IMG/VR virus record: IMGVR_UViG_3300042866_000811
Span: 1-30,325 of that record
Direction: 5' to 3' (one strand)
DNA length: 30,325 bases
From: a virus
A program made the position numbers and the translations under genes. Below the pieces are notes generated by a model that saw nothing but the letters and a program-made list of their open reading frames with translations, had not been told where the DNA came from and did not search any database. Below, piece by piece: positions 6,087 to 22,374 of the stretch; the stretch's first letter is position 1, and each line of letters starts with the position of its first letter.

Positions 6087-6087
6087 G

Positions 6088-6300: not shown

Positions 6301-6301
6301 T

Positions 6302-6559: not shown

Positions 6560-6560
6560 G

Positions 6561-6992: not shown

Positions 6993-6994
6993 TG

Positions 6995-8971: not shown

Positions 8972-9302
8972 GCGTCAAGTATTTTGTTGTGAGCGGGGTG
9001 AAAAAATAAAAAAGTTTCTGCGGTCCTTGGCCACGGCAACAGCAGCCGCGCCTGGCCCTGCCCCCCCCCTCCCCTCTGAGCACTCGCAGCAAAATGCTGC
9101 AATGCAAACTGAATGAACGTTCAGTCAGTCGCCAGGCGCGGGTGGCGCTCGACTAGCTGCGGCAAGAGGGTGCGGGCGGCTGTGTGCTATGGCCCTTTTG
9201 CCCTACGCAAACCAGGCGGGAAATGCAACTAGATGGAATGGGCAAAAGGGGCAACGCCCGAAAAACTACCGGGTATAATAAAATCAATGAGTTAGCGCGG
9301 CG

Positions 9303-9329
9303 ATGGGCAAGATGGGCAAAATGGGCAAT
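9303..9329 (+). repeat. Three tandem 9-bp iterons (ATGGGCAAN)
   Basis: ATGGGCAAG, ATGGGCAAA and ATGGGCAAT follow each other with no gap. Further related copies are an isolated ATGGGCAAAA at 9238-9247 and a partial ATGGGA at 9328-9333. Repeats of this kind serve as binding arrays for an initiator, terminase or repressor. Confidence 0.75.
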
Positions 9330-9422
9330 GGGATTTTACATCGCCCCCCTGAATCGCTGCACTGCAACATAAAGACTTCCTTATGTAGTACAAATAAAAA
9401 TCCATAGCATAGTAAATTAAAG

Positions 9423-9440
9423 ATTACCCATATTACCCAT
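9423..9440 (-). repeat. Two tandem 9-bp iterons in opposite orientation
   Basis: ATTACCCAT occurs twice head to tail. On the minus strand it reads ATGGGTAAT twice, one base different from the ATGGGCAAT unit of the other cluster. The 93 bases between the clusters include a very AT-rich stretch (about 9366-9422) with a small ACATAA/TTATGT hairpin. Read as TTACCCATA, each unit matches seven of nine bases of the DnaA box TTATCCACA. Confidence 0.75.
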
Positions 9441-9523
9441 ACGCCGATGGCATAATGCTATCTCTGCATCGCGGCGCTGCCCATTGCAGCACCCAAACGC
9501 CACCCCACCAGCACCCCAAAACA

Positions 9524-9549
9524 AAACGGGCGGCAATTGCCGCCCGTTT
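9524..9549 (-). terminator. Intrinsic terminator, 26-bp perfect palindrome
   Basis: The arms AAACGGGCGGCAA and TTGCCGCCCGTTT are perfect complements. On the minus strand the hairpin runs into TTTTGTTTTGG, a usable U-tract. It lies 43 bases beyond the stop of the small minus-strand gene (9592-9732), so it most likely ends that transcript. Confidence 0.7.
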
Positions 9550-9554
9550 GCTTA

Positions 9555-9572
9555 CTACGCCATATGGCGTAG
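9555..9572. repeat. 18-bp perfect palindrome
   Basis: CTACGCCAT/ATGGCGTAG is a perfect inverted repeat between the stop of the small minus-strand gene and the terminator. It could be an RNA-stabilising hairpin or a protein-binding site. Confidence 0.6.
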
Positions 9573-9591
9573 CACGTCCTTCTATGCGGCG

Positions 9592-9732
9592 TCAATAGAC
9601 CCGTTTCAGCTTTTTGAACTCCACGGCGTAGCCATTATTGACATACAGTGGAATAATCTGAAAGCGATGCTGGTTGGCGCCAATCCAGTTAGCCATTGCG
9701 TGCGAGGTCTTGAAGCGCTTTGTGGTCCACAT
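9592..9732 (-). CDS. 46-residue basic protein, lone early-type gene
   Basis: The protein begins MWTTKRFKTSHAMANWIGAN and ends EFKKLKRVY; it is basic and aromatic. I do not recognise a family. It has all parts of a working gene: AGGA about eight to eleven bases before the ATG, a good minus-strand promoter (TTGACA, 18-base spacer, TATTGT) just upstream, and a strong terminator downstream. It is transcribed away from the early plus-strand operon and shares a control region with it, a position often used by phage regulators or host-takeover proteins. A regulatory role is inference. Confidence 0.65.
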   Translation of the reverse strand: MWTTKRFKTSHAMANWIGANQHRFQIIPLYVNNGYAVEFKKLKRVY

Positions 9733-9767
9733 GGTCCGTTTCCTTGTGTTGTGTTGACAATACGTGG

Positions 9768-9797
9768 ACAATAGCAGAAAAGAAAATGTGGTGTCAA
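9768..9797 (-). promoter_or_regulatory. Promoter for the small minus-strand gene
   Basis: TTGACA (complement of 9792-9797), an 18-base spacer and TATTGT (complement of 9768-9773, four of six consensus bases). The transcript would start about 30 bases before the ATG at 9732. Confidence 0.6.
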
Positions 9798-9810
9798 CAA
9801 ATATTTGTTG
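9795..9810. promoter_or_regulatory. Candidate operator between divergent promoters
   Basis: The 16-bp perfect palindrome CAACAAATATTTGTTG lies between, and touches, the -35 boxes of the two divergent promoters. A protein bound here could control both. Imperfect outer arms (TGTCAA at 9792, TTGACA at 9811) extend the symmetry. Confidence 0.55.
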
Positions 9811-9839
9811 TTGACATTGTGTGAGCAGTTCACTATTCT
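9811..9839 (+). promoter_or_regulatory. Sigma-70-type early promoter
   Basis: Perfect -35 TTGACA (9811-9816), 17-base spacer, -10 TATTCT (9834-9839, four of six). The start point near 9846 leaves a short leader with AAGGGA before the ATG at 9866. It would drive the plus-strand early genes. Confidence 0.75.
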
Positions 9840-9865
9840 ACGTCCATCAACAAGGGAATACGGAA

Positions 9866-10009
9866 ATGGAAACGACGATCACGACACGGGCCGGAAACAA
9901 GATCACAGGCATCTTCAAGCCCTACAGCGAAGATGCCGACACGGTCCAAGTGACCAAAGGCAAGTGGAAGGGAAAGCATCTGGTCATCAAGAAAGCGGAC
10001 CGCGCCTAG
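9866..10009 (+). CDS. 47-residue early protein
   Basis: A short basic protein (METTITTRAGNKITGIFKPY...KGKWKGKHLVIKKADRA) of unknown function. The two lysine-rich beta-like segments suggest nucleic-acid contact, but this is inference. The first gene after the strong early promoter; AAGGGA lies eight bases before the ATG. The open frame extends back to 9821, but that part overlaps the promoter and is not translated. The TAG stop sits in the loop of a perfect 9-bp hairpin. Confidence 0.7.
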   Translation: METTITTRAGNKITGIFKPYSEDADTVQVTKGKWKGKHLVIKKADRA

Positions 10010-10018
10010 GGCGCGGTC
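9998..10018 (+). repeat. 9-bp hairpin with the stop codon as loop
   Basis: GACCGCGCC and GGCGCGGTC pair perfectly around the TAG stop of the 47-residue protein. There is no U-tract, so it is not a standard terminator. It may slow ribosomes or protect the RNA 3' end. Confidence 0.55.
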
Positions 10019-10024
10019 TAGCAG

Positions 10025-10045
10025 GCGGCCGCCATGCGCGGCCGC
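10025..10045. repeat. GC-rich hairpin after first early gene
   Basis: Two GCGGCCGC palindromes flank CATGC and can form an 8-bp stem. A small ACTAG/CTAGT inverted repeat follows at about 10048. No T-run follows, so full termination is doubtful; attenuation is possible. Confidence 0.5.
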
Positions 10046-10088
10046 TCACTAGTCCCTAGTCTAAACTCAACCAAAAGATGAAACTGCT

Positions 10089-10670
10089 ATGCTAATCGCT
10101 ACTGACATTCTCAAGGCCGCGCTGCTTTGTGCTTCGCAGGAAGAGAGCCGCTACTACCTTCGCGGCGTGCACCTGAGCACCACGGGGCACCTGGTGACCA
10201 CGGACGGGCACCGCATGTTCGTCGCCAAGCTGACTGAAGCCCCCGCGGCCGACGTCATCATCCCGCTTGATATGGTCAAGGCCGCGCTCAAGCTGGCGCC
10301 GAAGAAGGCCGCCACAATCGAGCTGAACGGCAACACACTCGGCGGCGTTGTGTTCACGCCCGTGGATGGCACGTTTCCCGATTGGCGCCGCGTCGTGCCG
10401 ACGGGCGAGGAACTGCCGTCCGGCAAGCCTGACGACGCGCCTGGCGCGGTTCATTTCAACCATGCCTTCATTGGTGACATGGCAAAGATGGCCGCCATCC
10501 TATGCGGCAAGGCCGATACAGCGCAATCCATGCTGCACCCTGTCAGCGCGAGCCATCCTTGCCTAGTCACGTTTGGTGACCGTGCCGATTGTTTCGCGGT
10601 TCTCATGCCATTGCGCCGCAAGATCAACCTCAGCGCGCCCCTCACGCGCAACGTCGTCATGGCAGGCTGA
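10089..10670 (+). CDS. Two-domain sliding-clamp-like protein (DnaN family)
   Basis: A 193-residue protein that probably tethers the phage polymerase to DNA. It shows DnaN landmarks in the right order: RYYLRGVHLSTTGHLVTTDGHRMF (21-44), matching the domain II signature YYLNG...LVATDGHRL; VDGTFPDWRRVVP (92-104), matching the (V/I)xGRFPDYRRVLP signature at the end of domain II; and CFAVLMPLR (168-176), resembling the YVVMPMRL C-terminus of the bacterial clamp. Domain I is absent, so the protein is about half the usual 366 residues, and domain III is short. A two-domain clamp would need three copies for a six-domain ring, as in PCNA; that is inference. The ribosome binding site is weak. Confidence 0.7.
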   Translation: MLIATDILKAALLCASQEESRYYLRGVHLSTTGHLVTTDGHRMFVAKLTEAPAADVIIPLDMVKAALKLAPKKAATIELNGNTLGGVVFTPVDGTFPDWRRVVPTGEELPSGKPDDAPGAVHFNHAFIGDMAKMAAILCGKADTAQSMLHPVSASHPCLVTFGDRADCFAVLMPLRRKINLSAPLTRNVVMAG

Positions 10671-10680
10671 CAACTAAAGC

Positions 10681-10710
10681 TTGACGGGCGGCGCCTGCCG
10701 CCCGTATACT
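10681..10710 (+). promoter_or_regulatory. Promoter overlapping a terminator-like hairpin
   Basis: TTGACG (10681-10686), 18-base spacer and TATACT (10705-10710) form a plausible promoter for the next gene. The spacer is itself a hairpin with arms ACGGGCGGC (10684-10692) and GCCGCCCGT (10697-10705), identical to the arms of the terminator at 9524-9549. The element could both end the clamp transcript and start a new one. Confidence 0.5.
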
Positions 10711-10743
10711 TTCCACACAATGTCAACTAAGGGAAACGCTACA

Positions 10744-11112
10744 ATGTCTAACATTTACGAACAACATGCCGCCGCATTCCGCGATGTTTCGGCCTTCGTC
10801 GTCACCTATAACGGCGACCGCGTCGCCACGGTCGCGCTCAAGTTTCCGCGTGATGGCGCCGGGCGCTTGTATGCCTACGTTCACTGGCACGGCGTCGAAA
10901 AGGTGCGGGGCTTTGCCGCTGGCGGCGGTTATGACAAGCGCACGGCCGCATGTGCCGCCGCCGCCCGCAAGCTGCCGCCGCAATTGCCCGCAGGTTATGA
11001 CGCCGCTGGCGACGTCTACGGCCGTTTTGTTGACGGATTGACCCGCGACGGCGGCCGGTCTTGGGAGGACGTCCTTCGGGACGCCGGGTTTAAGGTATTG
11101 CAGGCGGTGTGA
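10744..11112 (+). CDS. Conserved early phage protein, unknown function
   Basis: A 122-residue protein (MSNIYEQHAAAFRDVSAFVV...). The segments VAxVALKFPRDGAGRLYAYVHWHG and FAAGGGYDKRTAACAAAARKL resemble small proteins seen in many phages and plasmids, without a known activity. I chose the ATG at 10744 because AAGGGA lies upstream of it. An ATG eight codons earlier has no ribosome binding site. It is followed two bases later by a tiny membrane protein gene. Confidence 0.75.
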   Translation: MSNIYEQHAAAFRDVSAFVVTYNGDRVATVALKFPRDGAGRLYAYVHWHGVEKVRGFAAGGGYDKRTAACAAAARKLPPQLPAGYDAAGDVYGRFVDGLTRDGGRSWEDVLRDAGFKVLQAV

Positions 11113-11114
11113 CC

Positions 11115-11210
11115 ATGACCAACACACTGTACCTTGCCGCGCAGCTCGCCAAGGTCGCCCTGCTGTGCGCCGCGGCCTACGCATTCACCTATACCATCAT
11201 GCTATTCTAG
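11115..11210 (+). CDS. 31-residue single-pass membrane peptide
   Basis: MTNTLYLAAQLAKVALLCAA followed by AYAFTYTIMLF: almost entirely hydrophobic after the first residues, long enough for one membrane span. It begins two bases after the previous stop and ends 11 bases before the next ATG, fitting exactly into the operon. The function is unknown. Confidence 0.5.
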   Translation: MTNTLYLAAQLAKVALLCAAAYAFTYTIMLF

Positions 11211-11221
11211 GAGGGAAACAA

Positions 11222-11533
11222 ATGTCTTATCTCTATGTGCCCGTGACCATTGGCGTTTACCGCGATGGCGTTCACTTGACCGATTTCGCTTGTGAAGCCC
11301 GCGTCGAGTATGAGCTGCCAGACGGGCCGTCTGGCGTGCTCGACTGGGATGCGACGGGCTTTTACTTTACGGGCCAATACCTTGGTAAACCAATCCACCA
11401 CGAAATAGGATCGACCGACCCGCTTTGGAAGGATCTGTACGACCACATGGACCGCGAGTGGATCCACGATCAAGCGCGCGAAGCACTGGCACGCGATGGC
11501 ATCTGCAATCTGTACATGGACCCGGACCTATGA
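11222..11533 (+). CDS. Hypothetical early protein, 103 residues
   Basis: An acidic soluble protein (MSYLYVPVTIGVYRDGVHLTDF...) with a beta-rich first half and a helical second half (LWKDLYDHMDREWIHDQAREAL). I do not recognise a family. AGGAGGGA stands eight bases before the ATG and decides the start. The stop overlaps the start of the next gene (ATGA). Confidence 0.75.
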   Translation: MSYLYVPVTIGVYRDGVHLTDFACEARVEYELPDGPSGVLDWDATGFYFTGQYLGKPIHHEIGSTDPLWKDLYDHMDREWIHDQAREALARDGICNLYMDPDL

Positions 11534-11709
11534 CGCGGCCGATGTACGACGCCCGCGGCCTGGCGCCGGACCCGGAGCGGCTCGCGGAGGCGCACCACGT
11601 GCGCCGCGACCCGGCCACTGATGAAGTATCGTGGCCGCCGTCGCGCATGGCGGCCGTGCTGCGTGAACTCAAACTGATAGATGAAAAGGACCTCGACCAT
11701 GACACATGA
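11530..11709 (+). CDS. Hypothetical early protein, 59 residues
   Basis: A small charged protein (MTRPMYDARGLAPDPERLAEAH...). The ATG overlaps the preceding stop (ATGA), and its end overlaps the next gene by 11 bases. This packing supports real translation although no family is recognised. Confidence 0.6.
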   Translation: MTRPMYDARGLAPDPERLAEAHHVRRDPATDEVSWPPSRMAAVLRELKLIDEKDLDHDT

Positions 11710-11950
11710 TTTCACTTACCTCAACCAGCTCGGCGTCGTCGATTTGCTCGACCGTGCGCACCGCGGCAACTGGACCGGCCCCGAGGCGCACATGATACGC
11801 GCGCTTGCCGAACGGCTGGAGGAGCACCTTGACGCCGTCGCGGATTACGACGCCGTCAATGACGCCCTCATGGAGGCCAACCAGCGCGCCGATAGCTGGC
11901 GCGAGGAAGCGCAGGCGGTACAGCGCCAGCTCGATCAGGTGCGCGGATGA
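11699..11950 (+). CDS. Coiled-coil early protein, 83 residues
   Basis: The protein begins MTHDFTYLNQLGVVDLLDRA. From about residue 30 on it is one charged helix (IRALAERLEEHLDAVADY, then EANQRADSWREEAQAVQRQL) that should form a coiled coil. Function unknown. AAGGA lies about 11 bases upstream of the ATG. The stop overlaps the next start (ATGA). Confidence 0.65.
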   Translation: MTHDFTYLNQLGVVDLLDRAHRGNWTGPEAHMIRALAERLEEHLDAVADYDAVNDALMEANQRADSWREEAQAVQRQLDQVRG

Positions 11951-12153
11951 CGCCAGACCGGGCGTATTGGGCGGGCCATTGCAGCGCGTTTGACGACGCG
12001 ACCCTGTTGCGCTTCCTTGTGGCCGTGGAGGCCAGCCGCAGCCGCTACGACGCGGCCCTTGAGGCTGCGCAAGCGGAGGCAGAGCGCCGCAATCTGGTAA
12101 AAGAAAAGGCCCCCGTCACCGGGGGCCAAGCAATAGGGAGGAAACAGCCTTGA
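11947..12153 (+). CDS. Hypothetical early protein, 68 residues
   Basis: A mainly helical protein (MTPDRAYWAGHCSAFDDATL, then a helix of charged and alanine residues). No family recognised. It starts on an ATGA overlap and its TGA overlaps the TTG start of the DnaA-like gene. The end of its coding region carries a perfect hairpin that looks like a terminator for the opposite strand. Confidence 0.65.
   Translation: MTPDRAYWAGHCSAFDDATLLRFLVAVEASRSRYDAALEAAQAEAERRNLVKEKAPVTGGQAIGRKQP
12098..12127 (-). terminator. Terminator facing antisense transcription
   Basis: Arms GGCCCCCG (12108-12115) and CGGGGGCC (12120-12127) with a 4-base loop. Only on the minus strand is the hairpin followed by a U-tract (TTTTCTTTTACC, complement of 12096-12107). 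It would stop minus-strand transcripts that run past the primase-helicase gene into the early genes. Confidence 0.6.
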
Positions 12154-12614
12154 CGTATCACGACGTGCCACTGGACGCAATAGAGATTGAACGGCGCCTG
12201 CGCGCCTACCTCGACGACCTGGTGCAGCTCGCGGGCGGCCCCGTGACGGTCTGGCGCGCGGCCCGCATGGCTATGGAGCACCTGCGGCGAGCGGCCAACG
12301 CGCCCGATAGCGAGCCCGTGACGCTGCCGACGACACATCCCGAGGCCATCGTGCAGGCCGTGGCGGCCGCGCATGGCCTCACGGTCGACGACCTGCGCGG
12401 CCCGGCGCGGACGCGGTATATCAGCACCGCGCGCCACCACGCGGCGTGGGAACTGCGCCTACGGCGGCCTGACCTGCCGCTGGACAAGATCGCGGCTTGG
12501 CTGAACCGGCGCGACCATGCAACGATGATCCACAGCTTGAAGACGTTCCGCAAACTGCGCGCAAGCGGCCAATACGACGAAGAGCGCGCCCTTGTGGAGC
12601 GCGCCCTGTCATGA
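12150..12614 (+). CDS. DnaA domain IV-like DNA-binding protein
   Basis: A 154-residue protein whose C-terminal half matches the DNA-binding domain of the replication initiator DnaA. IVQAVAAAHGLTVDDLRG (67-84) corresponds to the start of domain IV, ARTRYISTARHHAAWELR (86-103) to the basic loop and next helix, and RRDHATMIHSLKTF (120-133) to the recognition helix normally reading GRDHTTVLHA. One threonine that contacts the DnaA box is Ala here. The ATPase domains are missing; the first 60 residues are an unrelated helical part. It starts at TTG, with GGGAGGA upstream and an overlap with the preceding stop (TTGA). It may bind a phage origin or regulate its own operon. Confidence 0.8.
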   Translation: MTYHDVPLDAIEIERRLRAYLDDLVQLAGGPVTVWRAARMAMEHLRRAANAPDSEPVTLPTTHPEAIVQAVAAAHGLTVDDLRGPARTRYISTARHHAAWELRLRRPDLPLDKIAAWLNRRDHATMIHSLKTFRKLRASGQYDEERALVERALS

Positions 12615-12670
12615 TCATGCTGGTGGCCTTGGTGCTGGCGGCCCTTGTGGCCGCCTGGCTCGACCTCTAA
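12611..12670 (+). CDS. Possible 19-residue hydrophobic peptide
   Basis: MIMLVALVLAALVAAWLDL, a pure membrane-spanning sequence. The ATG overlaps the stop of the DnaA-like gene (ATGA). Its TAA overlaps, on the other strand, the TAG of the converging primase-helicase gene. The exact fit is suggestive, but a chance frame cannot be excluded at this length. Confidence 0.35.
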   Translation: MIMLVALVLAALVAAWLDL

Positions 12671-14973
12671 CCCTTCACCACTGTAAGCCCCGGACCTGCG
12701 GCGTGCTCGACCATGCGCCGCAGGTCGCTCTTTGAGTAGGTGCGCGTCATGTCCTCGCGCGCCCAGATGTTTTTCTTGGTCTGATACTCGGCCGACTTGA
12801 CGGCGCCGAGGTCGATCCAGCCCGCTTCCTTGAGACCATGCAACAGCGCTGCCTGGGGCACCTTGACGCCACCGGGCGCGCCCTGCTGGAGCTGGTTGCA
12901 GATCTTGTGGAATGGTGACGCAATGACGCCCGCGGCGAACTCGGGCGACGGCTTGTGCACCTGCTCGATGACGTAACTCTCCGCCATGCTGCGGCCCGTC
13001 TCGATGAGGCGCGTCCGGTAGTCCGTCCACGGCGGCATGGCCGCAGGATTGAACGCCGACACATCGCGGTCGAGCAGCCAACGGCCCACGGCCTGGAGCC
13101 CACCCTGCTTCTTGTACCACGCCCACAGCGCCACCGCGTCCGCCTTCTCCATGCGCGGCGCGTGCGACCACAGGCAGAACCAGCGCCGGTCCTGCGTCGG
13201 CAGCGACAGCGGCACGGGATCGTTGGTGAACGCCAGCACAAACAGGCGGTTGACCATGTCGTAAGGGTGCAGGCCCTTGCGCTCGATGGTCAGCGTATCG
13301 GGCGGCGCCGCGATGATCGGCTTGAGCTTGTTCGACAGCGAGCGGCGCTGGGCAGCCTCGGGCTCCTTCAGCTCGTTCAGGATCAGGATCTCGCTCTCTA
13401 AGGCATAGCCCCAGCGCGAGTTGATGCCGTCCGCGTCCACCAGCCCGCGGTTGCGCAGGTCGGGCCCGCACACGGACCAGATGAACGGGAACCAGAACGT
13501 ATCCTTGCCGCAGCCCTCGTCGCCGCCATGCAGCACGGCGTGATTGATCTTCACCTCCGGGTGCTGGAGCTTGTAGGCCATGACGTCGAAGACGTGCTCG
13601 CGCTCGACTTGGTCGGGGATCAGCAGCTCGGCATGGGCCAGCCACGGCGTGACGTCACCCGGCGCGACGCCGGACAGGTCCGGCCGCGCGTTGATCCAGC
13701 GGTTGCCGTAGACCTCGCTGTCCTTGGCGACTAGGACGCTCTCGCCCGCAGCGTAGGTCAGCCCGCGCAGCACACGCGCCCCCGCCCCTTGGCGGTTCTC
13801 GTCGTAACAGACGGACGCCTCGACCTTGCGTTGCGTGTGGATCGACTTGCAATCGACGTGTCTAAACACGGCGTTGAACGCGCCGCGCGTCATCTCCCGC
13901 CGGTCGATCATGTCGAAATAGGCGTCGTCCTCGACGATGTACGCGAAGCGGCTGAACCACTCGCGCTTGGTCAGGCGGCCCAGCTCCTTGCGGTCAACCT
14001 CGGCGATGACCTCGGCAGCCGCATCAGGGAACGCCTCGGTCGGCTGGATCGTCGCGGCCACCATGGCCATGCGCTCGGCCACCAGCTCCTCGCGGAAGCC
14101 CGCCTGCACCGTCGGCCCGCTCTGCTCGGCCACCCATGCAAGGAAGGCGTTGCTGTCGAGGTGCTCGCAGTGGGAGTGGTAGCAGCAGAACGCCCGGTTG
14201 ACGGGCGAGTAACGGCCCTCGATCTGGCCGTCCGTATGCGCGGCATGGTTCGGGCAGACGACGCCGCACCAGCCCTCGCGGTTGACCTGGGAGAGCACCA
14301 GCCCCTGCTCGGAGAGCCACTTGAGCACGCTGTCGGAGCCCGTGTCGCGCAGGCGGATCACCTGCGGCCCGGCACTGTCGGCGGGTGCTGGCGTGACGTC
14401 CAGCCCCTCGCAGATCTGCGCCAGCGTGTACTCGCGCTCAGGGTGGAACTCGACCAGCCGCGCGGGGAACAGGTCACGCCCCGGCTTGAGGTTGGGCGAG
14501 CCTGGCAGGCGGCAGTTGCGCACCGCGTTGGTGGCGCCGGGGTCCGTGTAGCCTGCGGCCGCAATGGCAGTGATGGCCGCGACGAACTCAGCCTTGGTCG
14601 GCTGCTCCTTGAAGGCGTAGCCCCACTGGCAGTTGCCGGGCGACGTCTCGACGATCCACGTCGGTGGCACGGGCGGCACCTTGGACTTGGTGCCGATGTC
14701 GTCCAGCATCATGAACAGGACGAACTCGCAGTTGGCCGCCGAAGCCGACGGCTTGCCGTCGAAACGATCGATGATGAACGAGCCCGTATTGATGAACCAG
14801 CTCTCGCCGTCCCTGCGCGCCCGTGACGGCAGGAAGGCGGGCCATGTGAACTTGAGGGTGCCGTCGCGGTGCGTGACTTGCTGCCCGTCATACATGACGG
14901 GCTTCTGGCGCACGATCAGGGCTGTTTCGCCGTCCGGCGCAAGGCCGGTTAGGTATTCTAGAAGGTCTGACAT
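12667..14973 (-). CDS. Primase-helicase (RepB-like primase, DUF5906-type ATPase)
   Basis: A 768-residue replication enzyme that probably lays primers and unwinds DNA. The N-terminal part (about 60-190) resembles the archaeo-eukaryotic/RepB primase fold: FVLFMMLDDIG (84-94), WIVETSPGNCQWGYAFKE (106-123) and NAVRNCRLPGSPNLKPG (149-165). A Cys/His cluster follows (WCGVVCPNH near 235-243, FCCYHSHCEH near 262-271) and may bind zinc. The C-terminal ATPase has Walker A GGDEGCGKDT (483-492), a Walker B-like ILILNE (529-534) and an arginine-rich QDRRWFCLW, the arrangement of DUF5906/SF3-like phage helicases. An AAGAGGAAAC site precedes the ATG. It is the last gene of the minus-strand replication operon. 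Confidence 0.85.
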   Translation of the reverse strand: MSDLLEYLTGLAPDGETALIVRQKPVMYDGQQVTHRDGTLKFTWPAFLPSRARRDGESWFINTGSFIIDRFDGKPSASAANCEFVLFMMLDDIGTKSKVPPVPPTWIVETSPGNCQWGYAFKEQPTKAEFVAAITAIAAAGYTDPGATNAVRNCRLPGSPNLKPGRDLFPARLVEFHPEREYTLAQICEGLDVTPAPADSAGPQVIRLRDTGSDSVLKWLSEQGLVLSQVNREGWCGVVCPNHAAHTDGQIEGRYSPVNRAFCCYHSHCEHLDSNAFLAWVAEQSGPTVQAGFREELVAERMAMVAATIQPTEAFPDAAAEVIAEVDRKELGRLTKREWFSRFAYIVEDDAYFDMIDRREMTRGAFNAVFRHVDCKSIHTQRKVEASVCYDENRQGAGARVLRGLTYAAGESVLVAKDSEVYGNRWINARPDLSGVAPGDVTPWLAHAELLIPDQVEREHVFDVMAYKLQHPEVKINHAVLHGGDEGCGKDTFWFPFIWSVCGPDLRNRGLVDADGINSRWGYALESEILILNELKEPEAAQRRSLSNKLKPIIAAPPDTLTIERKGLHPYDMVNRLFVLAFTNDPVPLSLPTQDRRWFCLWSHAPRMEKADAVALWAWYKKQGGLQAVGRWLLDRDVSAFNPAAMPPWTDYRTRLIETGRSMAESYVIEQVHKPSPEFAAGVIASPFHKICNQLQQGAPGGVKVPQAALLHGLKEAGWIDLGAVKSAEYQTKKNIWAREDMTRTYSKSDLRRMVEHAAGPGLTVVKG

Positions 14974-14991
14974 TGTTTCCTCTTGTCGTCG

Positions 14992-15345
14992 TTACTTCAG
15001 TGTGCGGAACGCGATTGCGTTGTTGACCGTTCTCACCCGCGACCGCACGCGGTTGCCGTCATTGCCGGACTTGACAATCCAGCCCTTGGCCGTTTTGCCG
15101 ACGATCACGCCGACGTGATTGCGCCAGACGACGATGGCGCCGATCCGCGCCCGCGTCGGGCGTCCGACCTTGGCCCAGTTCCGCGCGCGCCACAGATCCT
15201 TGCGATGCGGCATTCCGAAATAGTGCGCCAGATAGCAGCCGCACCAGCGTGACGGACAGCCCCTCGGCTGGCCGGGCTCGCGGGCCTCGACGCTGGCGGT
15301 GGAGATCAGCAGCGCGGCCAGAGCCGCAAGCAGTACGTTCTTCAT
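14992..15345 (-). CDS. Exported CHAP/NlpC-like cysteine hydrolase
   Basis: A 117-residue protein with an N-terminal signal peptide (MKNVLLAALAALLISTASVEA, probable cleavage after 21). The mature part has SRWCGCYL (C35) as likely nucleophile, RNHVGVIVG (H77) and SGNDGN (94-98), the order seen in CHAP/NlpC-P60 papain-like amidases and peptidases acting on peptidoglycan. The pattern WCG...ARNWA...GAIVVWxxHVG...SGNDGNxVRxR is one I associate with alphaproteobacterial proteins. Its location between primase and polymerase genes is unusual for a lysin. It might remodel the cell wall early in infection or block superinfection. Activity and role are inferred. Confidence 0.7.
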   Translation of the reverse strand: MKNVLLAALAALLISTASVEAREPGQPRGCPSRWCGCYLAHYFGMPHRKDLWRARNWAKVGRPTRARIGAIVVWRNHVGVIVGKTAKGWIVKSGNDGNRVRSRVRTVNNAIAFRTLK

Positions 15346-15353
15346 GGTTCACC

Positions 15354-17330
15354 TCATGCCTTACCGTAACGAGCAAGCACTTTGCCGCTGGCACCCAAAG
15401 GAAGCCCTTCAGCCCAAGCGGGAGGGGTGACCATAACAGCCTGCATCGCGGCTGCCAATTCCGCTGATTTTTCTGTATCAACCTCGGCTACAATTTCGTC
15501 GTGCACGTGCAGCACGACCTCGACGCCCGCGGCGTCCAGACCGCGCAGCGCCTCGCGCAGGATGTCGTTGGCGGTGGCCTGCACGATGTTCTCGCAGGCA
15601 AGCCCGCGCCAGAGCCGCGCCCGTGGCCACTCCTTGGCATCCGCTGCGGGCTTCCACGACGCCTTGGCGTAGGACACGCCGTCCTCCTCGAACCGCGCGT
15701 AGGGGTAGCATAGCACGCGGCCCGACGGCAGCGCGTACCACAGATGATCGCCCTGCTTCATGTACTGGACGCGGCCCGCCTTGAACACCTCGCCGGGGTT
15801 GCGGATAGCGCGAGTGTACGCCTGCTCCAGATCGGCCCAGAACGGCACGGCCCACGGGTTGGCGCGGCGCCACAGATCGACCGTGCGCCTCGCCTCGCTC
15901 TCGGGCATGTGGACGCCGTAGACGCGGCCCATGGCGTTGAACGCCCCCACGCCGCCGCCGAACCCGCAGGCCAGCACGGCCACCTTGCCAAGCTGCCGCT
16001 GCTCGTCAGTGACGGCCGTCTCCTCGACGTTGAACATGCGCGAGGCAACGGCAACGTAGATGTCGCGGCCCTCGCGGAACACGTCCAGCGTCTCCTCGCC
16101 GTCCATCGACAGCCACGGCGTGACGCGGGCCTCGATCTGGGCATAGTCGAACACGGCGAAGACCTTGCCCTCGGCCGGGATCAACGCCGGACGCAGCATG
16201 GACTTCAGCACGTCGGTGACGCGCTTGCCGAACTCGGGCACGATCTGGTGCCCGCGCACGAGCGCCTGGCGGGCTAGTTCAGGCTCTTTGGCGCATTTTC
16301 GCGGGAAGTTGTGGACTTGGAGACCATAACTTGATGCGCGGCCCGTAGCGCTTCCCCCAGCAAACACAAACGCACCCCGGACGCGACTGTCGATATCATC
16401 TGAGAGCGATGCAGCTCGCTCAAACTTCGCCACCGACGATGCCCAGAGATCGTCCGCGCACTGCACCACCTCATGGACTTCCGGGGGTACTTCATCAGGG
16501 TTCTCCATCGCCAGCAGGTTGGACCGCACCGTCTTGTCGATGCTAGCCTTTTGTACGCCGTCCTTCCAGACCATCATCATGGCCCGCGCCTGCGGCCCGA
16601 CGCGCTCCAGCACCCACTCGCGCATCCGCGGGCTGCGCACGCTGGTGAGCCCCGTGATCTCGCGGAAGATCGTCTCGATCTCCTCCTGCTCGGCGGCGGC
16701 ATACTTGACGGCGGCCTGCGCCAGCGGGCGGTCGAGGCGCACGCCGCGGTCGTTGATGCGCTCGTTGACGTGGTAGTCGAGCAGCTCCTCGTCGGTCAGC
16801 CCGCGCATGGCCTTGGAGAAGGCCCGCATGGCGCGCACGTCCTGCTCGCAGTACTCGATCATCTCCTGCATCAGCCCGGCGTCCTCGCGGAACGTGCCGT
16901 TGGCCTGCGGGATGGACAGCGCGCGCACCAGCGCCGCACCGCGGTGATCCTTGCGCATCCCTGCGCCCGCGAAGCGGCCCACGTCCTCCAGGCTGCCCGG
17001 CGCGCAGTTGGCACGGGCCTGCGCCGCGGTGCAGTAGAACTGCGTCAGCGCAGGCTCGGGCACGCCGTGGTCGGGACAGATGACGTACCAGAAGATCAGC
17101 CGCTCGAAGGCGGCGTTGTGGGCGCGGATCTGTGCGCCAGAAAGAATTGCCGCCGAAACTTTCTGTGGAAAAGACTGGTCGAAGGTCCACGTCTGCACGT
17201 CCTCGCCGTCGAAGGCGTAGGACATGCAGAGCACTTGTGTGGAGATGTCTTGCGCGTAGTTGTACACGCCCCGGCTCGGCAGATCGCAGCGCGAGCGGGT
17301 CTCGAAGTCAAGCCAGAGGGTTGTCTTCAT
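15354..17330 (-). CDS. polA: Family A DNA polymerase with 3'-5' exonuclease
   Basis: A 658-residue replicative polymerase of the Pol I family. The exonuclease domain shows LDFETR (D8, E10), HNAAFE and EQDVRA (D164). The polymerase domain has motif A VFDYAQIEAR (D395), motif B R445-x3-K449 in QRQLGKVAVLACGFGGG, and motif C LHVHDEIV (H610, D611, E612). Aligning motif B with E. coli R754/K758 puts Leu at position 762 and Phe at 766. No 5' nuclease domain is present, as usual in phages. The ATG at 17330 follows GAGGT at eight bases and overlaps the PAPS-reductase-like gene by 23 bases. Nine more codons upstream are open but lack a site. Confidence 0.93.
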   Translation of the reverse strand: MKTTLWLDFETRSRCDLPSRGVYNYAQDISTQVLCMSYAFDGEDVQTWTFDQSFPQKVSAAILSGAQIRAHNAAFERLIFWYVICPDHGVPEPALTQFYCTAAQARANCAPGSLEDVGRFAGAGMRKDHRGAALVRALSIPQANGTFREDAGLMQEMIEYCEQDVRAMRAFSKAMRGLTDEELLDYHVNERINDRGVRLDRPLAQAAVKYAAAEQEEIETIFREITGLTSVRSPRMREWVLERVGPQARAMMMVWKDGVQKASIDKTVRSNLLAMENPDEVPPEVHEVVQCADDLWASSVAKFERAASLSDDIDSRVRGAFVFAGGSATGRASSYGLQVHNFPRKCAKEPELARQALVRGHQIVPEFGKRVTDVLKSMLRPALIPAEGKVFAVFDYAQIEARVTPWLSMDGEETLDVFREGRDIYVAVASRMFNVEETAVTDEQRQLGKVAVLACGFGGGVGAFNAMGRVYGVHMPESEARRTVDLWRRANPWAVPFWADLEQAYTRAIRNPGEVFKAGRVQYMKQGDHLWYALPSGRVLCYPYARFEEDGVSYAKASWKPAADAKEWPRARLWRGLACENIVQATANDILREALRGLDAAGVEVVLHVHDEIVAEVDTEKSAELAAAMQAVMVTPPAWAEGLPLGASGKVLARYGKA

Positions 17331-18225
17331 CGGAGAACACCTCGCAGCTTTCTTCACAACCGGCGCCTACATCAAAATCGGGGTCGAACACGGCAGCCTC
17401 ATCGTGTGCCGGAACAAACGTGTCTTTCTTGCGTTCATATTCCGCAAACAAATCCGCCACACTCATGTTGCCGCGGAAAAATGTGCGGTGGTAATCCGGC
17501 CCTATCGGGCGTTCACGGGTTGCAGGGTCTTTAAGAAACTCCGGGCCAACCTTGCCATATTGCGCCTCCATCTGGCGCGGAAAATCGTAGTGTTCCGGGT
17601 GTTCCGCAATGATGGTCAGGTGCTTGCGCAGCGACTTTTTCCAACACCACTTGCAGTTGCCCTGATAACCCTTGAGTTCAAGCCGAAATGGTTGCGCGGT
17701 CCACCAACTATTGATCTTGGGTTTGGTCATCGGGTGTTCTTTAAGAAGCGGGTAGATGATGCGGCGCTGCTGTGCGGCGGCCGACATCCGATCCGCCTCA
17801 TCGGCGCGGATACCAATGGCTAGGTCGTAAGATCCATTGGCCCAACCGACAGCCCGCGCGTATGCCTCAATGGGTTTCTGTTTCAGGTTGCGGGTGCAGT
17901 CTTTGAATTTCTGATTAGGAATGCCATACTTGCGGATTGCGTCTTCAAACGGTGCGCCGTTCCGCGCGGCGGTGTCAAAAGTCACAACTTTGTAGCCTGG
18001 CGAGCGGCGTTCGCCGTGGTACTGCACCGCTTCAATCCAGACCGTACCAAAACCAAAATGTTCGTCACAGCGCCGCACAAACTCTAATGTCTGCTCATTT
18101 TCTTGCCCGGTGTTTGCGAAGACAACCAGAATGTCGTCGTAACGATCCCGCCAGTTCTGAAGTATCCACCAAGTCATGTAGGCGGATGTTTCACCGCCCG
18201 AAAAGCTGATAAGCAGTCGGTTCAT
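17308..18225 (-). CDS. PAPS-reductase-like PP-loop protein
   Basis: A 305-residue member of the adenine nucleotide alpha-hydrolase superfamily. The PP-loop SFSGGETSA is at 7-15, followed by VVFANTGQENEQTLEFV (34-50), as in PAPS reductases, which sense ATP or sulfonucleotide. Cysteines C110 (KDCTRN), C191/C194 (GNCKWCWKK) and C290/C294 could hold an iron-sulfur cluster, as in the DNA phosphorothioation protein DndC. The substrate is unknown. Phage versions are often annotated as PAPS reductase but probably serve nucleotide, tRNA or DNA chemistry. It lies upstream of and overlaps PolA. The leader ACAAGAGGAAACGATG is nearly identical to that of the primase gene. Confidence 0.75.
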   Translation of the reverse strand: MNRLLISFSGGETSAYMTWWILQNWRDRYDDILVVFANTGQENEQTLEFVRRCDEHFGFGTVWIEAVQYHGERRSPGYKVVTFDTAARNGAPFEDAIRKYGIPNQKFKDCTRNLKQKPIEAYARAVGWANGSYDLAIGIRADEADRMSAAAQQRRIIYPLLKEHPMTKPKINSWWTAQPFRLELKGYQGNCKWCWKKSLRKHLTIIAEHPEHYDFPRQMEAQYGKVGPEFLKDPATRERPIGPDYHRTFFRGNMSVADLFAEYERKKDTFVPAHDEAAVFDPDFDVGAGCEESCEVFSDEDNPLA

Positions 18226-18250
18226 CGTTTCCTCTTGTACTGAAGTGGTC

Positions 18251-18280
18251 GGGGCGCGGCCCCAGCAGAAACCGCGCCCC
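18251..18280 (-). repeat. 9-bp stem-loop in the replication operon
   Basis: GGGGCGCGG (18251-18259) and CCGCGCCCC (18272-18280) pair around a 12-base loop in the gap between the 212-residue gene and the PP-loop gene. There is no T-run after it, so it may be an attenuator or an RNA-processing or stabilising element. Confidence 0.5.
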
Positions 18281-18287
18281 TCGCCCG

Positions 18288-18926
18288 TTAGGCGCTGCGA
18301 CGGCGGCGGGTGGGGGCATCCACCGGCGCTTCGCTTGCGGGCTTCTCTTCGGCCTGACCATCAAGGCTCAACCAATTCACGACCTCGAACACGGGCGTAA
18401 AGATGCGCCCGTAGGACTTGTGGGTGTAGTGGTCCTTCTTCAGCTTCACCGCGGGCACCGGCTTGGCCTGATCGGCCTCGACCTGCGCCGCAATGTCAAG
18501 GGCCAGCTTCTGCACGGCACGCTTGCCGCCGACGCTGGTCACGCTGTAGCGCACCTCAAGCCCCTCGTCCTCACCGGACATGCACTTGAGGCTCATGCCG
18601 ACCTGAAGCTCCCAGCCGCGCTTGGCCTGCGGCGGCGCGGGGTCCACTTCGGGCAGCGGCTCGTTGACCGGCACCATCTTCTCGGCCAGCACCTCGCCAT
18701 CGCCCCAGGCGATGTAGCCGTGCACGAACGAGAACGGATTGACGGCCCAGGTGCTGCCCTCCTCGACCTCGGTCTGGTCAGCGCCGAACACCCAGTGTCC
18801 GGTCTTGTCCATCTTGAGGATTGCCACGCCATCGGCACCACCGACGCTCGCATCAAGCGAGCGCAGTGCCTGCGACAGGTTCTGGACGGAGGGAAGGTTG
18901 GCCTTCGCAAAGGTAATCGCGTTCAT
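18288..18926 (-). CDS. Conserved phage replication-module protein, unknown function
   Basis: A 212-residue protein (MNAITFAKANLPSVQNLSQA...). The centre, ILKMDKTGHWVFGADQTEVEEGSTWAVNPFSFVHGYIAWG, and later LKCMSGEDEGLEVRYSVTSVGG recur, from memory, in phage proteins next to PolA and PD-(D/E)XK nuclease genes. No catalytic motif is evident. The acidic, proline-rich C-terminus (AEEKPASEAPVDAPT) resembles tails of single-strand DNA-binding proteins, so that role is possible but unproven. AGGA eight bases before the ATG at 18926 decides the start; the frame is open 34 codons further upstream. Confidence 0.75.
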   Translation of the reverse strand: MNAITFAKANLPSVQNLSQALRSLDASVGGADGVAILKMDKTGHWVFGADQTEVEEGSTWAVNPFSFVHGYIAWGDGEVLAEKMVPVNEPLPEVDPAPPQAKRGWELQVGMSLKCMSGEDEGLEVRYSVTSVGGKRAVQKLALDIAAQVEADQAKPVPAVKLKKDHYTHKSYGRIFTPVFEVVNWLSLDGQAEEKPASEAPVDAPTRRRRSA

Positions 18927-18939
18927 CTTATTGTCCTTT

Positions 18940-20064
18940 CTAGACAAGTTTACCAAGGGCAGCAGCGAGATGCTTGCCGACCTGCAACGACGCCGGGCGC
19001 GGATCATCCGCGGGTGCCAGCGTGTCACCCGATGAGACGGCGGTGATGAGCCCTTCCGGCATGGCGATCTTGTGCTTCTTCAGCACCTTCTCGACCTGCG
19101 CCGGGCTCTTCAGCTCCGTCAATTCCTCAGCACTACAGCCTGCTTCGGCAAGGGCTGTCAATGCCGTCTGTTCGTTCACCCACTGGCGCGTCGCCCGCTT
19201 GGGCACCAGCTTCCAGCCGGGCAGCTCGACGCCCGCCTCCAGCAGTTCGACGGCCATCTCGCGGGCGTCCCTGATCCAGCCCTCCAGCAGGTCGATGCTG
19301 GCCAAGGCTTCCGAAAGCCGAAAGATGTTGACCGCCTTGATGTTCTCGCGCTTGGCGCGCTCAACGGCGCCGTTGACCAGCGGGCAGATCGACTTGGCAG
19401 CGCACCAGCGGCAGTGGTCGCCAGTCGCCAGCGGCGCGTCCGGCCGCTGCGCGGTCTTGACGGCCATGATCAGCTCGGCCTCGAAGCGGCGCACCCGGTC
19501 GAGGTCCGTCACCCAGCGCCGCACATGCGGCGGCTGCACGATGATCACCTCGACCGTCTCGACGCCCTCGAAGGCCCAGCGTGTCGCCTCGGTGCGAAGT
19601 GCGGCAGCCGTGTAGAAGAGCGCCTGCGGGTTCTCTTCAGCCTCGACAGGCACGCCGTCGCCAAACTTCCAGTCCAGCAGGATACCGCGATTGCCAATCC
19701 GGCCAACAAGATCGGCGGAACCAAAAACACCAGGGAGAGCGTCACCAAAGCCCACCACCTGCTCGACCGCGTATTCCAACTGCCCATCCGGGTCGATCTC
19801 ATCCAGCACCGCCAGCGCGGGCAGCAGCTTGCGCTCCAGCCGGTCCTCCGTCAACTCGATGCCGTTGTACATCAGCCCAAGGAACGTTTCGGGCCTCCTG
19901 TTCGTCTCCAGAATGGTTGAAATGACGGTGTGCAACAGCGTGCCCTCGTCGGCGTAGCTGCTGGACGGCTTGGGCGGCACCTGCTGCACAAGCGCGACGC
20001 TGCCGGGGCACGCGATGACGCGCTTGGCGGTCGAACCGCCGACGATGTTAGAGTGTTGGGCCAT
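18940..20064 (-). CDS. PD-(D/E)XK nuclease, Cas4/AddB-like with Fe-S cysteines (DUF2800-like)
   Basis: A 374-residue RecB-type nuclease that probably resects DNA in phage replication or recombination. Motifs in order: EGTLLH (40-45), GSADLV (D118), LLDWKFG (D131, K133), and NPQALFY (Q147), the QxxxY-type motif IV. Three cysteines in CRWCAAKSIC (218-227, spacing C-x2-C-x5-C) plus a distant N-terminal cysteine (C19) give the four-cysteine layout that binds a 4Fe-4S cluster in Cas4 and AddB. The overall form matches phage DUF2800 proteins. The C-terminal 130 residues are helical and unassigned. The ATG overlaps the stop of the preceding gene (TAATG). Confidence 0.85.
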   Translation of the reverse strand: MAQHSNIVGGSTAKRVIACPGSVALVQQVPPKPSSSYADEGTLLHTVISTILETNRRPETFLGLMYNGIELTEDRLERKLLPALAVLDEIDPDGQLEYAVEQVVGFGDALPGVFGSADLVGRIGNRGILLDWKFGDGVPVEAEENPQALFYTAAALRTEATRWAFEGVETVEVIIVQPPHVRRWVTDLDRVRRFEAELIMAVKTAQRPDAPLATGDHCRWCAAKSICPLVNGAVERAKRENIKAVNIFRLSEALASIDLLEGWIRDAREMAVELLEAGVELPGWKLVPKRATRQWVNEQTALTALAEAGCSAEELTELKSPAQVEKVLKKHKIAMPEGLITAVSSGDTLAPADDPRPASLQVGKHLAAALGKLV

Positions 20065-20389: not shown

Positions 20390-21118
20390 ATGATCCATTA
20401 TCACGGACTGCCAATTACACCCGCAACCGCTGCGGCCAAGGCTATAGAAGCTGGCCATGCGTTCATCAGTTTTGCCCATAAAGATCAGTTGGGCGTCGCC
20501 GTCGAATTGTGCCAGTCGTTTGCCATTGACAACGGCGCGTTCTCGGCGTGGCGCGGCGGCAACGCAGTGACGGACTGGTCGGGCTATTATGCGTGGGCCG
20601 AACAGTGTCGGCGTGTTCCGTCGTGCGATTTTGCCGTAATCCCTGATGTTATTGATGGCAACGAAGACGCCAACGATGCGTTGCTGGATGAGTGGCCGTT
20701 GCCGCTGTGGTTTGGCGCGCCGGTCTGGCACATGCACGAAACGCTGGACCGCTTGGAGCGCCTTGCACTGCAATATCCGCGGGTCTGTGTGGGCAGTTCG
20801 GGTCATTTCGCCGTCGTAGGCACGCCGAGTTGGCGCGTGCGTATGGGTGACGCTATGCGTGTGGTTTGCGACCGCGAAGGCCGCCCATTAGTGAAACTGC
20901 ACGGCCTACGAATGCTCAATCCTCGCGTATTTACGCGGTTCCCGTTTGCATCAGCGGACAGCACAAATATCGGCCGCAACGTCGGTATCGACAAGAATTG
21001 GTCAAAGGGGCACTACCTGCCCCCGACAAAAGAGGCACGGGCGCAGGTCATGCGCCAGCGCATAGAAGCCCACAACGCCCCCGCACAATTTAACTTTGAG
21101 GAAGACCTATGCTTATAG
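20390..21118 (+). CDS. DpdA/TGT-like base-exchange protein
   Basis: A 242-residue protein that looks like a compact TIM-barrel transglycosylase. FAIDNGAFSAW (44-54), CDFAVIPDVIDG (79-90), PVWHMHE (111-117), VCVGSSG (132-138), LVKLHGLRMLNPRVF (167-181) and FPFASADSTNIGRN (184-197) follow the order of tRNA-guanine transglycosylases and the phage DNA enzyme DpdA, which swaps guanine for a 7-deazaguanine. D47, D86 and D190 are candidate active-site acids. It lacks the CxCxxC zinc site of classical TGT and is shorter. The assignment is supported by the next gene, a queuosine-precursor-type transporter. AAGG stands seven bases before the ATG. Confidence 0.65.
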   Translation: MIHYHGLPITPATAAAKAIEAGHAFISFAHKDQLGVAVELCQSFAIDNGAFSAWRGGNAVTDWSGYYAWAEQCRRVPSCDFAVIPDVIDGNEDANDALLDEWPLPLWFGAPVWHMHETLDRLERLALQYPRVCVGSSGHFAVVGTPSWRVRMGDAMRVVCDREGRPLVKLHGLRMLNPRVFTRFPFASADSTNIGRNVGIDKNWSKGHYLPPTKEARAQVMRQRIEAHNAPAQFNFEEDLCL

Positions 21119-21582
21119 TTGCCGTCGCCGCATACGCCGCCGCCATTGTCGCTGCCAACTTGTCTGTGGCTGCTTTTGGTCCTGCCATCTCGCCCGTAAA
21201 TGCTTTTCTGTTCATTGGGTTTGACCTAGCTCTACGCGACTGGCTGCATATCCGGTTGAAAGCCTGGCAGATGCTGACGTTGATCGTTGCTGCTGGCGCG
21301 TTATCATATGGTCTTAACCCCGCCGCGGGTATCATCGCGGTTGCTTCTACGACTGCTTTTGTCGCCGCCGCCGTCGTCGATTGGGGCGTGTTTGCCGCCG
21401 TTAAAGGTTCATGGTTAAAGCGGTCCAACACGTCCAACGTAGCCGCGGCAGCCGTTGACAGTCTAGTATTTCCAACTCTCGCGTTTGGCGCGCTGATGCC
21501 GCACATCGTGGCCATGCAGTTCGTCGCCAAAGTGCTCGGAGGCGCGCTGTGGACATGGGCGCTCAACAATGCGCGAAAGTGA
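21109..21582 (+). CDS. VUT/YhhQ-like queuosine-precursor transporter
   Basis: A 157-residue integral membrane protein with about five or six hydrophobic segments. AANLSVAAFGPAISPVNAFL (15-34), GFDLALRDWLH (37-47) and LKRSNTSNVAAAAVDSLVF (103-121) are hallmarks of the VUT family, whose E. coli member YhhQ imports preQ0 and preQ1. It would supply a 7-deazaguanine base to the phage. The gene overlaps the DpdA-like gene by 10 bases, with GAGGA seven bases before the ATG, so the two are translated together. It is shorter than bacterial VUT proteins (about 220 residues), as I would expect for a compact phage version. Confidence 0.8.
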   Translation: MLIVAVAAYAAAIVAANLSVAAFGPAISPVNAFLFIGFDLALRDWLHIRLKAWQMLTLIVAAGALSYGLNPAAGIIAVASTTAFVAAAVVDWGVFAAVKGSWLKRSNTSNVAAAAVDSLVFPTLAFGALMPHIVAMQFVAKVLGGALWTWALNNARK

Positions 21583-21862
21583 GATCGAGAAGCACTTCGT
21601 CTGGACGGTGCAGCGCATGGGCGGGACGGCCTACAAGTTCAAGTCGCCCAACCACCGCGGCGTGGCCGACCGCATCGCCTGTCTGCCGGACGGCTCGACG
21701 TGGTTCGTCGAGCTGAAGGCACCCGGAGGGCGGCCATCCCCGCTCCAGAAGCTCTTCGCGGCCCGCATGAAAGAACTCGGACAGAACTACACGATACTAT
21801 GGTCAAAGACGGAGATAGACGAATGGCGCGCATCCTTGTTGCCTGCGAATACTCAGGTGTAG
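21569..21862 (+). CDS. VRR-NUC domain nuclease
   Basis: A 97-residue, single-domain nuclease of the VRR-NUC family (PD-(D/E)XK fold). E7 in SEIEKHF, GVADRI (D34), WFVELKAPGG (E48, K50) and SPLQKLFAARMKELG match the family from start to end. Phage versions are often found near SNF2 helicases and act on branched DNA. It overlaps the transporter by 14 bases and the methylase gene by 40. No obvious ribosome binding site, so translation is probably coupled. Confidence 0.88.
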   Translation: MRESEIEKHFVWTVQRMGGTAYKFKSPNHRGVADRIACLPDGSTWFVELKAPGGRPSPLQKLFAARMKELGQNYTILWSKTEIDEWRASLLPANTQV

Positions 21863-22374
21863 TCCGGCGGGCGTTCCGCGCCCGTGGACACGACGCATGG
21901 TCCTGCGACCTGCTTCCGGCGGAAGACGGTTCGCCGCACCATTATCAGCACGACGTTTCTACAATCCTCAACGACGGCTGGGACTTGATGATAGCCCATC
22001 CACCTTGCACGCATCTCGCCGTTTCCGGCGCGCGTTGGTTCAAGGACAAGCAGGCGGAACAGGTTGCGGCGCTGGACTTTGTTAGACGCTTGTTAGACGC
22101 ACCTGTTGAGCGCATCGCGCTGGAGAACCCGATTAGCGTCATCAGCAGCCGCATCCGCAAGCCCGATCAGGTCATCCAGCCGTGGCAATACGGCCATGGC
22201 GAAACCAAGGCGACCTGCCTGTGGCTCAAGAACCTGCCAAAACTGACGCCGACAAACGTCGTTGACGGCCGCGAAGCGCGCGTCCACAAGATGCCTCCCA
22301 GCCCAAACCGCTGGAAAGAGCGCAGCCGCACCTACAAAGGCATCGCTGCGGCGATGGCAGAACAATGGAGTTAA
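21823..22374 (+). CDS. Small cytosine-C5-methyltransferase-like protein
   Basis: A 183-residue protein with the core signals of DNA cytosine methylases: ACEYSGVVRRAFRARGHDAW (7-26, AdoMet-binding motif I), DLMIAHPPCTHLAVSG (54-69, motif IV with the Pro-Cys catalytic pair) and IALENPISV (98-106, ENP of motif VI). The large target-recognition domain of host enzymes is missing; about 80 residues (KATCLWLKNLP and on) take its place. Such compact phage proteins are widespread. They may methylate phage DNA against restriction, but activity is not shown. GGAG nine bases upstream supports the ATG at 21823. Confidence 0.75.
   Translation: MARILVACEYSGVVRRAFRARGHDAWSCDLLPAEDGSPHHYQHDVSTILNDGWDLMIAHPPCTHLAVSGARWFKDKQAEQVAALDFVRRLLDAPVERIALENPISVISSRIRKPDQVIQPWQYGHGETKATCLWLKNLPKLTPTNVVDGREARVHKMPPSPNRWKERSRTYKGIAAAMAEQWS

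Follow-up and report, generated by a model that had tools for sequence, protein, structure and literature searches.

A DpdA-like gene coupled to a compact VUT-family transporter gene: a candidate phage 7-deazaguanine DNA-modification cassette with imported supply

The viral record IMGVR_UViG_3300042866_000811 of IMG/VR, a stretch of 30,325 bases that is possibly a fragment and was analysed at its full length (the window), carries two overlapping genes that encode a DpdA-like protein with the TGT fold and a compact membrane protein of the VUT family. The two genes recur in tight coupling, the VUT gene is exchanged for QueD or QueE genes around related enzymes, and the enzyme has a homologue in a phage with 7-deazaguanine in its DNA. 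We propose that they form a minimal 7-deazaguanine DNA-modification cassette with an imported supply, a reading to which we give a probability of roughly 0.7. According to this proposal, the VUT protein would sit in the inner membrane during infection and enlarge the cell pool of a 7-deazaguanine base, most likely preQ0 and possibly preQ1 or queuine, while the DpdA-like protein would remove guanines from phage DNA and insert the imported base, so that the modified DNA would be hidden from restriction enzymes. The transporter would fill a precursor-supply slot in which related phages use QueD or QueE, with more synthesis, and a tiny QueF-L-like protein that accompanies the cassette in related phages would convert preQ0. 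Where a host could be checked, import would add to the synthesis of that host and not replace it.

Two overlapping genes for a DpdA-like enzyme and a VUT protein

The DpdA-like gene (20390..21118, +) encodes 242 residues, a putative guanine/7-deazaguanine base-exchange enzyme, and the VUT gene (21109..21582, +) encodes 157 residues, a putative importer of preQ0, preQ1 or queuine. Both open reading frames of the preliminary description were recovered, with 10 bp (21109..21118, +) common to them as read off the sequence, but its wording of a fusion was dropped, the proteins being separate and the genes merely overlapping. The overlap suggests translational coupling of the two genes; their adjacency was found in 80/80 loci, but not with an identical 10-bp overlap. 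The G+C content is 58.0% for the DpdA-like gene and 57.2% for the VUT gene, versus 61.8% over bases 1-19000. Comparison of the DpdA-like gene with its relative in locus L006 gave a nonsynonymous divergence (dN) of 0.022 and a synonymous divergence (dS) of 1.11 (dN/dS about 0.02), and comparison of the VUT gene with that of L090 a dN of 0.20 and a dS of 1.65, synonymous sites being near saturation in both cases. From these comparisons, both genes look to be under purifying selection.

Across the 30,325 bases, QueC (Pfam) gave no match, and profiles built from relatives detected no QueD, QueE or small QueF-L-like family. The earlier remark that no synthesis genes are visible thus stands for QueC, QueD and QueE; FolE, which it also covered, was not searched for.

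The DpdA-like enzyme

The 242-residue protein matches phrog_887, annotated as 'queuine tRNA-ribosyltransferase' (E 2.4e-70), a family common to it and to gp032 of Salmonella phage 7-11, with which it shares 34% identity (E 2e-36; hhalign probability 99.95 of 100). This gp032 is probably the DpdA of PMC6884629, as the sole gene in the 7-11 record annotated as queuine tRNA-ribosyltransferase.

A structure model built from 21 homologues (pLDDT 80.6) was compared with solved structures by Foldseek and by VIA-align, a second comparison of Foldseek's best 1000 chains. Foldseek alone placed other TIM barrels beside the archaeosine TGT 1j2b, which stood at rank 4. With VIA-align, 774 of the 1000 chains reached Z 8, and the 50 rows shown hold 49 TGTs and one Cap10 (Z 13.1-15.5) and no other fold, in agreement with the TGT fold that had been anticipated from the letters. 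At the top, in a tie with an archaeosine TGT (Z 14.9), stands a deazaguanine-modified Cap10-CdnD complex (9ntn_B, Z 15.5). Of 30 structural matches to viral proteins at E 0.001 or lower, nine bear the name queuine or queuosine tRNA-ribosyltransferase, and the majority of the rest are unnamed. Sequence searches of the PDB with the enzyme or the transporter alone gave nothing useful, and alignment A1 yielded one match, at E 1.2.

Two motifs stand out in the alignment of 21 homologues. The DNGAF motif (D47-N48-G49-A50-F51; 20528..20542, +) is invariant in 21/21, and in the S188-A189-D190-S191 motif (20951..20962, +) S188, D190 and S191 are likewise invariant. We take the D47 motif to be the position equivalent of the DSGGF(Q) motif in TGT; D47 and D190 would then sit where TGT has its catalytic aspartates, and D190 is the candidate nucleophile. 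A second DpdA-like family, phrog_15826, has the same order of motifs, with DNG(A/G)F in 12/12 members and an invariant D174 that aligns with D190; profile comparison of the two families gave a probability of 87 of 100 (E 4e-6). The comparison of alignment A1 with the PF23859-type protein of locus L078 was not significant (hhalign probability 0.65 of 100), and it is by its own Pfam match that the L078 protein is placed in the superfamily. The window enzyme is predicted to insert 7-deazaguanine into DNA.

The VUT transporter

The 157-residue protein matches Pfam Vut_1 (PF02592) with 38 bits against a cut-off of 27.2, as well as phrog_4899, so that the VUT affinity proposed earlier is borne out. 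Profile comparison of the phage VUT with five cellular Vut_1 proteins gave a probability of 96.3 of 100 over the C-terminal half. The structure model (pLDDT 94.5) has six long helices, with which the protein would be predicted to insert into the membrane. In VIA-align its top 11 rows are S-components of ECF transporters or CbiM/metal-type ECF parts (Z 8.4-10.8), a likeness that is suggestive only, as these Z values lie under the level that the tool advises for helical proteins. The model is slightly closer to ECF S-components (RibU, BioY, PanT) than to other solved membrane proteins, and Vut_1 proteins may be solitary relatives of S-components. The substrate is probably preQ0, preQ1 or queuine. 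No relatives came up when the Opt-719 VUT served as the query of a further scan.

Recurrence of the pairing

For each search the best 80 loci were examined: of 84 relatives for the window VUT in viral contigs, of 487 for the window-type enzyme in viral contigs, of at least 552 in a second VUT/DpdA sample, and of 83 for the enzyme in bacterial genomes (79 distinct loci). All samples consist of near relatives of the query, and some contigs recur between searches, including near-identical copies of the window phage (L002-L004).

Analysis of the 80 viral VUT loci revealed a TGT/DpdA-like gene on the same strand in every one, with a gap of at most 231 bp between the profile hits. Four enzyme families are represented, and the order is enzyme-first in 77 loci and transporter-first in three. 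The window-type DpdA, identified by blastp on the same strand, accounts for 73 loci; the remaining seven comprise three with a 425-residue type, three with the phrog_15826 type (one of them scanned) and one matching Pfam DpdA. Two of the 425-residue proteins are complete and one is cut; in the one that was scanned, DUF6884 is present and the TGT match falls narrowly short of the cut-off. Complete copies lie directly upstream of VUT at L058:163-1437 and L060:1739-3013, and that of L058 shows a TGT-like stretch followed by DUF6884.

In the second, overlapping sample, of which 55 loci were newly cut (L236-L290) and some lie on contigs seen before, VUT was accompanied by a DpdA-like gene in 80/80 loci, within 300 bp in 79. 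The same pairing is found in named isolates: phrog_887 adjoins VUT in eight of the ten records examined (from 21 records with VUT), enzyme-first in Acinetobacter phage AB3P2 and VUT-first in the other seven. The coupling of the enzyme to a VUT-like transporter, put forward in the preliminary description, is strengthened by this recurrence.

Close upstream of the DpdA-like and VUT genes, L078 (4882-5274, PF05014) and L081 (4809-5180, with a similar start by eye) carry a nucleoside 2-deoxyribosyltransferase-like gene, whose product could handle the free modified base.

Exchange of VUT for QueD or QueE and a proposed precursor-supply slot

Around the window-type enzyme, a pathway gene lies within 2 kb in 78 of the 80 viral loci. 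The partner is VUT alone in 44, VUT with a QueF-L-like gene in 13, QueD in 11, a QueF-L-like gene alone in nine and QueE in one, two loci having none; VUT together with QueD or QueE occurs in 0/80. QueD was confirmed by curated models in loci L121 and L320 and in the records of L121, L141 and L153, and the QueE of L096 matches phrog_2076 (E 2.8e-26). A set of 50 records, of which 45 have VUT and many are fragments, yielded QueC matches in none, a QueE match in one and PTPS/QueD matches in three, and all four matches fall in VUT-less records. We read this exchange of VUT with QueD or QueE around the same enzyme as one exchangeable precursor-supply slot. The second DpdA-like family shows the same partners in its 34 loci: VUT in five, QueD in two and a QueF-L-like gene in five (three alongside VUT), although three of the five VUT loci (L315, L316, L318) are contigs already present in the first VUT sample.

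A quick tree built from 205 enzymes requires 18 changes of VUT status, three of the QueD label and eight of the QueF-L-like-only label; 55 of its 201 inner branches are starred and long-branch warnings were given. Duplicates, short hits and partner-less loci with less than 900 bases of flank on either side were left out.

The small protein of this set, phrog_37496 (about 79 residues), stands beside two different DpdA-like families (L022, L157, L205, L316-L318 and others) and is absent from the window by profile. Its C12-P13, E34 and E49 are invariant in 21/21 sequences and resemble the Cys/Glu pattern of QueF; the overall succession of C-P, E, F/W/Y-H-E and H-x-x-V has the look of a minimal QueF-L. 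The best PDB match is the archaeal archaeosine synthase QueF-L 5jyx (E 0.02), and hhalign against bacterial QueF gave an E of 0.0013 but a probability of 18.7 of 100. An assignment as ordinary QueF was rejected, 0/21 members matching Pfam QueF, and phrog_37496 is retained as a candidate QueF-L-like protein.

Hosts of the enzyme and transporter genes

In bacterial genomes, the 79 enzyme loci include VUT in five, QueD in four and a QueF-L-like gene in 28, accompanied by VUT in a single case. QueC matches were obtained in 48 of the 49 enzyme-bearing genomes searched; the match in G047 is weak and partial and G016 has none, which leaves 47/49 clear. A further, stronger Vut_1 match lies elsewhere in three of the five genomes with VUT loci. 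Two of the five VUT-bearing loci are on short contigs of metagenome-assembled genomes, so these host links are loose.

Points against the cassette and rival explanations

Several observations weigh against the proposed cassette. No Pfam or NCBIfam model matched the 242-residue protein, the Pfam models for DpdA (PF23859) and TGT (PF01702) included, and the enzyme is filed under neither; the 7-11 protein likewise matches no Pfam family, which indicates that these models miss this DpdA subgroup. Comparison of the enzyme family with 12 cellular TGTs by hhalign gave a probability of 0.4 of 100, the sequence profile thus missing cellular TGT, so that the kinship with TGT is based on the fold, the motifs and the relatives in phages. 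The enzyme may also be weak, given that phage 7-11, which has this type of enzyme, has only about 0.02% of its G modified. As for the transporter, TIGR00697 scored 20.3 bits and the curated cut-off of 50.95 was not reached; the protein is therefore filed as a member of the Vut_1 superfamily only, and not as a queuosine precursor transporter equivalog.

The remaining points concern the pairing and its hosts. Clustering of the 80 VUT loci by VUT identity leaves 22 groups at 80% and six at 60%. No partner was detected in the examined DNA of 25 of the 34 loci of the second DpdA-like family, nor within 700 bp of the enzyme in 43 of the 79 bacterial-genome loci. Conversely, a lineage of mEp021-like phages (27 viral contigs and two E. 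coli phage records) carries VUT without a detected DpdA-like gene in the 3-5 kb examined, and Pfam DpdA is absent from the two whole phage records. The VUT of these loci (L308, L314, L349-L375) is a divergent phage form; phrog_757 lies just downstream of it in 25 of the 27 contigs, and in both isolate records VUT is preceded by a DUF6378 protein. Finally, all five bacterial genomes with VUT-bearing loci have QueC (E 4e-66 or better). Replacement of a missing host synthesis by VUT was rejected on this count, and the earlier suggestion that the phage skips synthesis is not supported. Together with the additional Vut_1 of the hosts, their QueC makes the phage VUT better seen as an extra supply than as the sole source: import as a supplement fits these data, and import as the only source is unproven.

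Three other explanations were weighed. The pair could serve tRNA, in that VUT would supply a base, the TGT-like protein would alter queuosine or similar bases in the tRNA of the host or the phage, and translation would be tuned during infection. The fold common to tRNA TGT and the window enzyme speaks for this, but the CxCxxC zinc motif is not seen by eye in the 242-residue sequence, and all 13 host genomes checked own a TGT. E. coli YhhQ is described as serving tRNA queuosine (PMC5372724); against this, the window enzyme groups with the phage protein taken here as the published DpdA, whose phage is reported to have modified DNA (PMC6884629), and we regard action on tRNA as unlikely. A type IV CBASS connection, in which the TGT-like protein would act against systems with deazaguanine-modified proteins and not on DNA, is raised by Cap10-CdnD topping the VIA-align rows, Cap10 being presumably TGT-like. 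Its Z value lies within 1 of that of the archaeosine TGT, a tie, and the occurrence of QueD, QueE and VUT as partners suggests that a base is being supplied, for which counter-defence has no obvious use; such a role is very improbable.

It could also be that VUT and DpdA are morons, neighbours inherited together with no joint function, the membrane protein acting for instance in superinfection exclusion. The retention of VUT without detected DpdA in mEp021-like phages and the bacterial-genome enzyme loci with no detected partner agree with this, but VUT is paired, in two gene orders, with DpdA-like genes of four families, its status changes repeatedly on the quick enzyme tree and it is replaced by QueD or QueE. 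Joint inheritance without a joint function is judged quite unlikely, and the modification cassette with imported supply is preferred.

Relation to known systems

The closest measured case is Salmonella phage 7-11, reported as DpdA-only, with dADG at 50 per million nucleotides and no preQ0 synthesis genes according to PMC6884629. Our profiles found no VUT, QueD, QueE or QueF-L-like gene in it. Its enzyme is homologous to that of the window, which differs in coupling the enzyme to a transporter, whereas 7-11 has no VUT and only trace dADG. Hutinet et al. (2019) suggested that DpdA-only phages could draw on host preQ0 or on uptake, and described DpdA without synthesis genes as their largest group, 76 phages whose modification status is hard to predict; the same account found no particular group with which the YhhQ homologues of phages correlate (PMC6884629). 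Phages CAjan, Rosebush and 9g, in which DpdA is reported to put 7-deazaguanine into phage DNA, encode preQ0 synthesis (PMC6884629), unlike the window record with its lack of QueC, QueD and QueE matches.

Transporters have been described in richer clusters. Pantoea phage Vid5 (2018) has, like the window, a phage-borne Vut_1 transporter in a 7-deazaguanine cluster: a preQ0/preQ1 transporter in a que-tgt cluster for which preQ0 salvage was proposed (PMC6266253). According to that source, Vid5 adds FolE, QueD, QueE and Gat-QueC and its transporter is nearest to bacterial VUT, whereas the window has the enzyme and a compact phage VUT only. Haloviruses HCTV-1 and HCTV-16 are similarly reported to carry a virus-borne YhhQ alongside a 7-deazaguanine pathway, but they additionally carry a preQ0/G+ pathway (PMC8651126). 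In a figure legend of 2020, the phage gene clusters include preQ0 and preQ0/preQ1 transporters (PMC7472734), and a 2025 paper restates the import route. The window protein shares the Vut_1 family and six membrane helices with YhhQ/QPTR (COG1738) as described in PMC5372724 and PMC11130926; it differs in being compact, at 157 residues, and under the TIGR00697 cut-off, and its transport function is putative. As far as searches of open-licence PMC papers tell, what is new is the close coupling of the two genes where synthesis genes are lacking, the recurrence of this coupling across several DpdA families and the exchange with QueD or QueE; the pairing is not claimed to be unpublished.

Neighbouring genes in the window

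The cytosine-methylase-like gene pointed out in the preliminary description is real (phrog_757, 'DNA methyltransferase', E 2.7e-73). The second layer of protection read into it found no backing, and phrog_757 was rejected as a part of the module, since it lies within 3 kb of VUT in only three of the 80 loci. The corresponding counts for other window neighbours, with many flanks cut, are 22 for VRR-NUC, 22 for the helicase and one for a PP-loop gene. The latter (17308-18225, -) encodes a 305-residue 'PAPS reductase'-like protein (phrog_424, PF01507), and in L124 and L154 its relatives are found as the second gene upstream of the DpdA-like one. As a stand-in for QueC it was rejected, matching PAPS_reduct and not QueC. 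A promoter/terminator scan gave a result near chance, and Megablast of bases 1-24000 returned a portal-gene match only.

Implications

The coupling of DpdA with VUT and the supply slot bear on whether DpdA-only phages are modified and on what limits their modification. The prediction is a higher level of modification in phages that combine DpdA with a supply gene than in those having only this DpdA; of the latter, 7-11, with about 0.02% of G modified as reported in PMC6884629, is the one measured case known. Isolates recorded on E. coli K-12, such as Escherichia phage LHE71, make this prediction testable. Should modification depend on a base taken up from outside, the protection of DNA would be a trait governed by the environment and not by genes alone.

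More tentatively, and with the odds somewhat against so broad a statement, these loci may represent plug-in DNA-hypermodification cassettes, in which any of several DpdA-like enzymes would be combined with an exchangeable supply gene (VUT, QueD or QueE) and an optional QueF-L-like converter of about 80 residues. Where the slot is occupied by VUT, the extent and kind of modification would depend on bases scavenged outside the cell, and, if this reading is true, the protection of phage DNA would vary with the bases released by neighbouring microbes.

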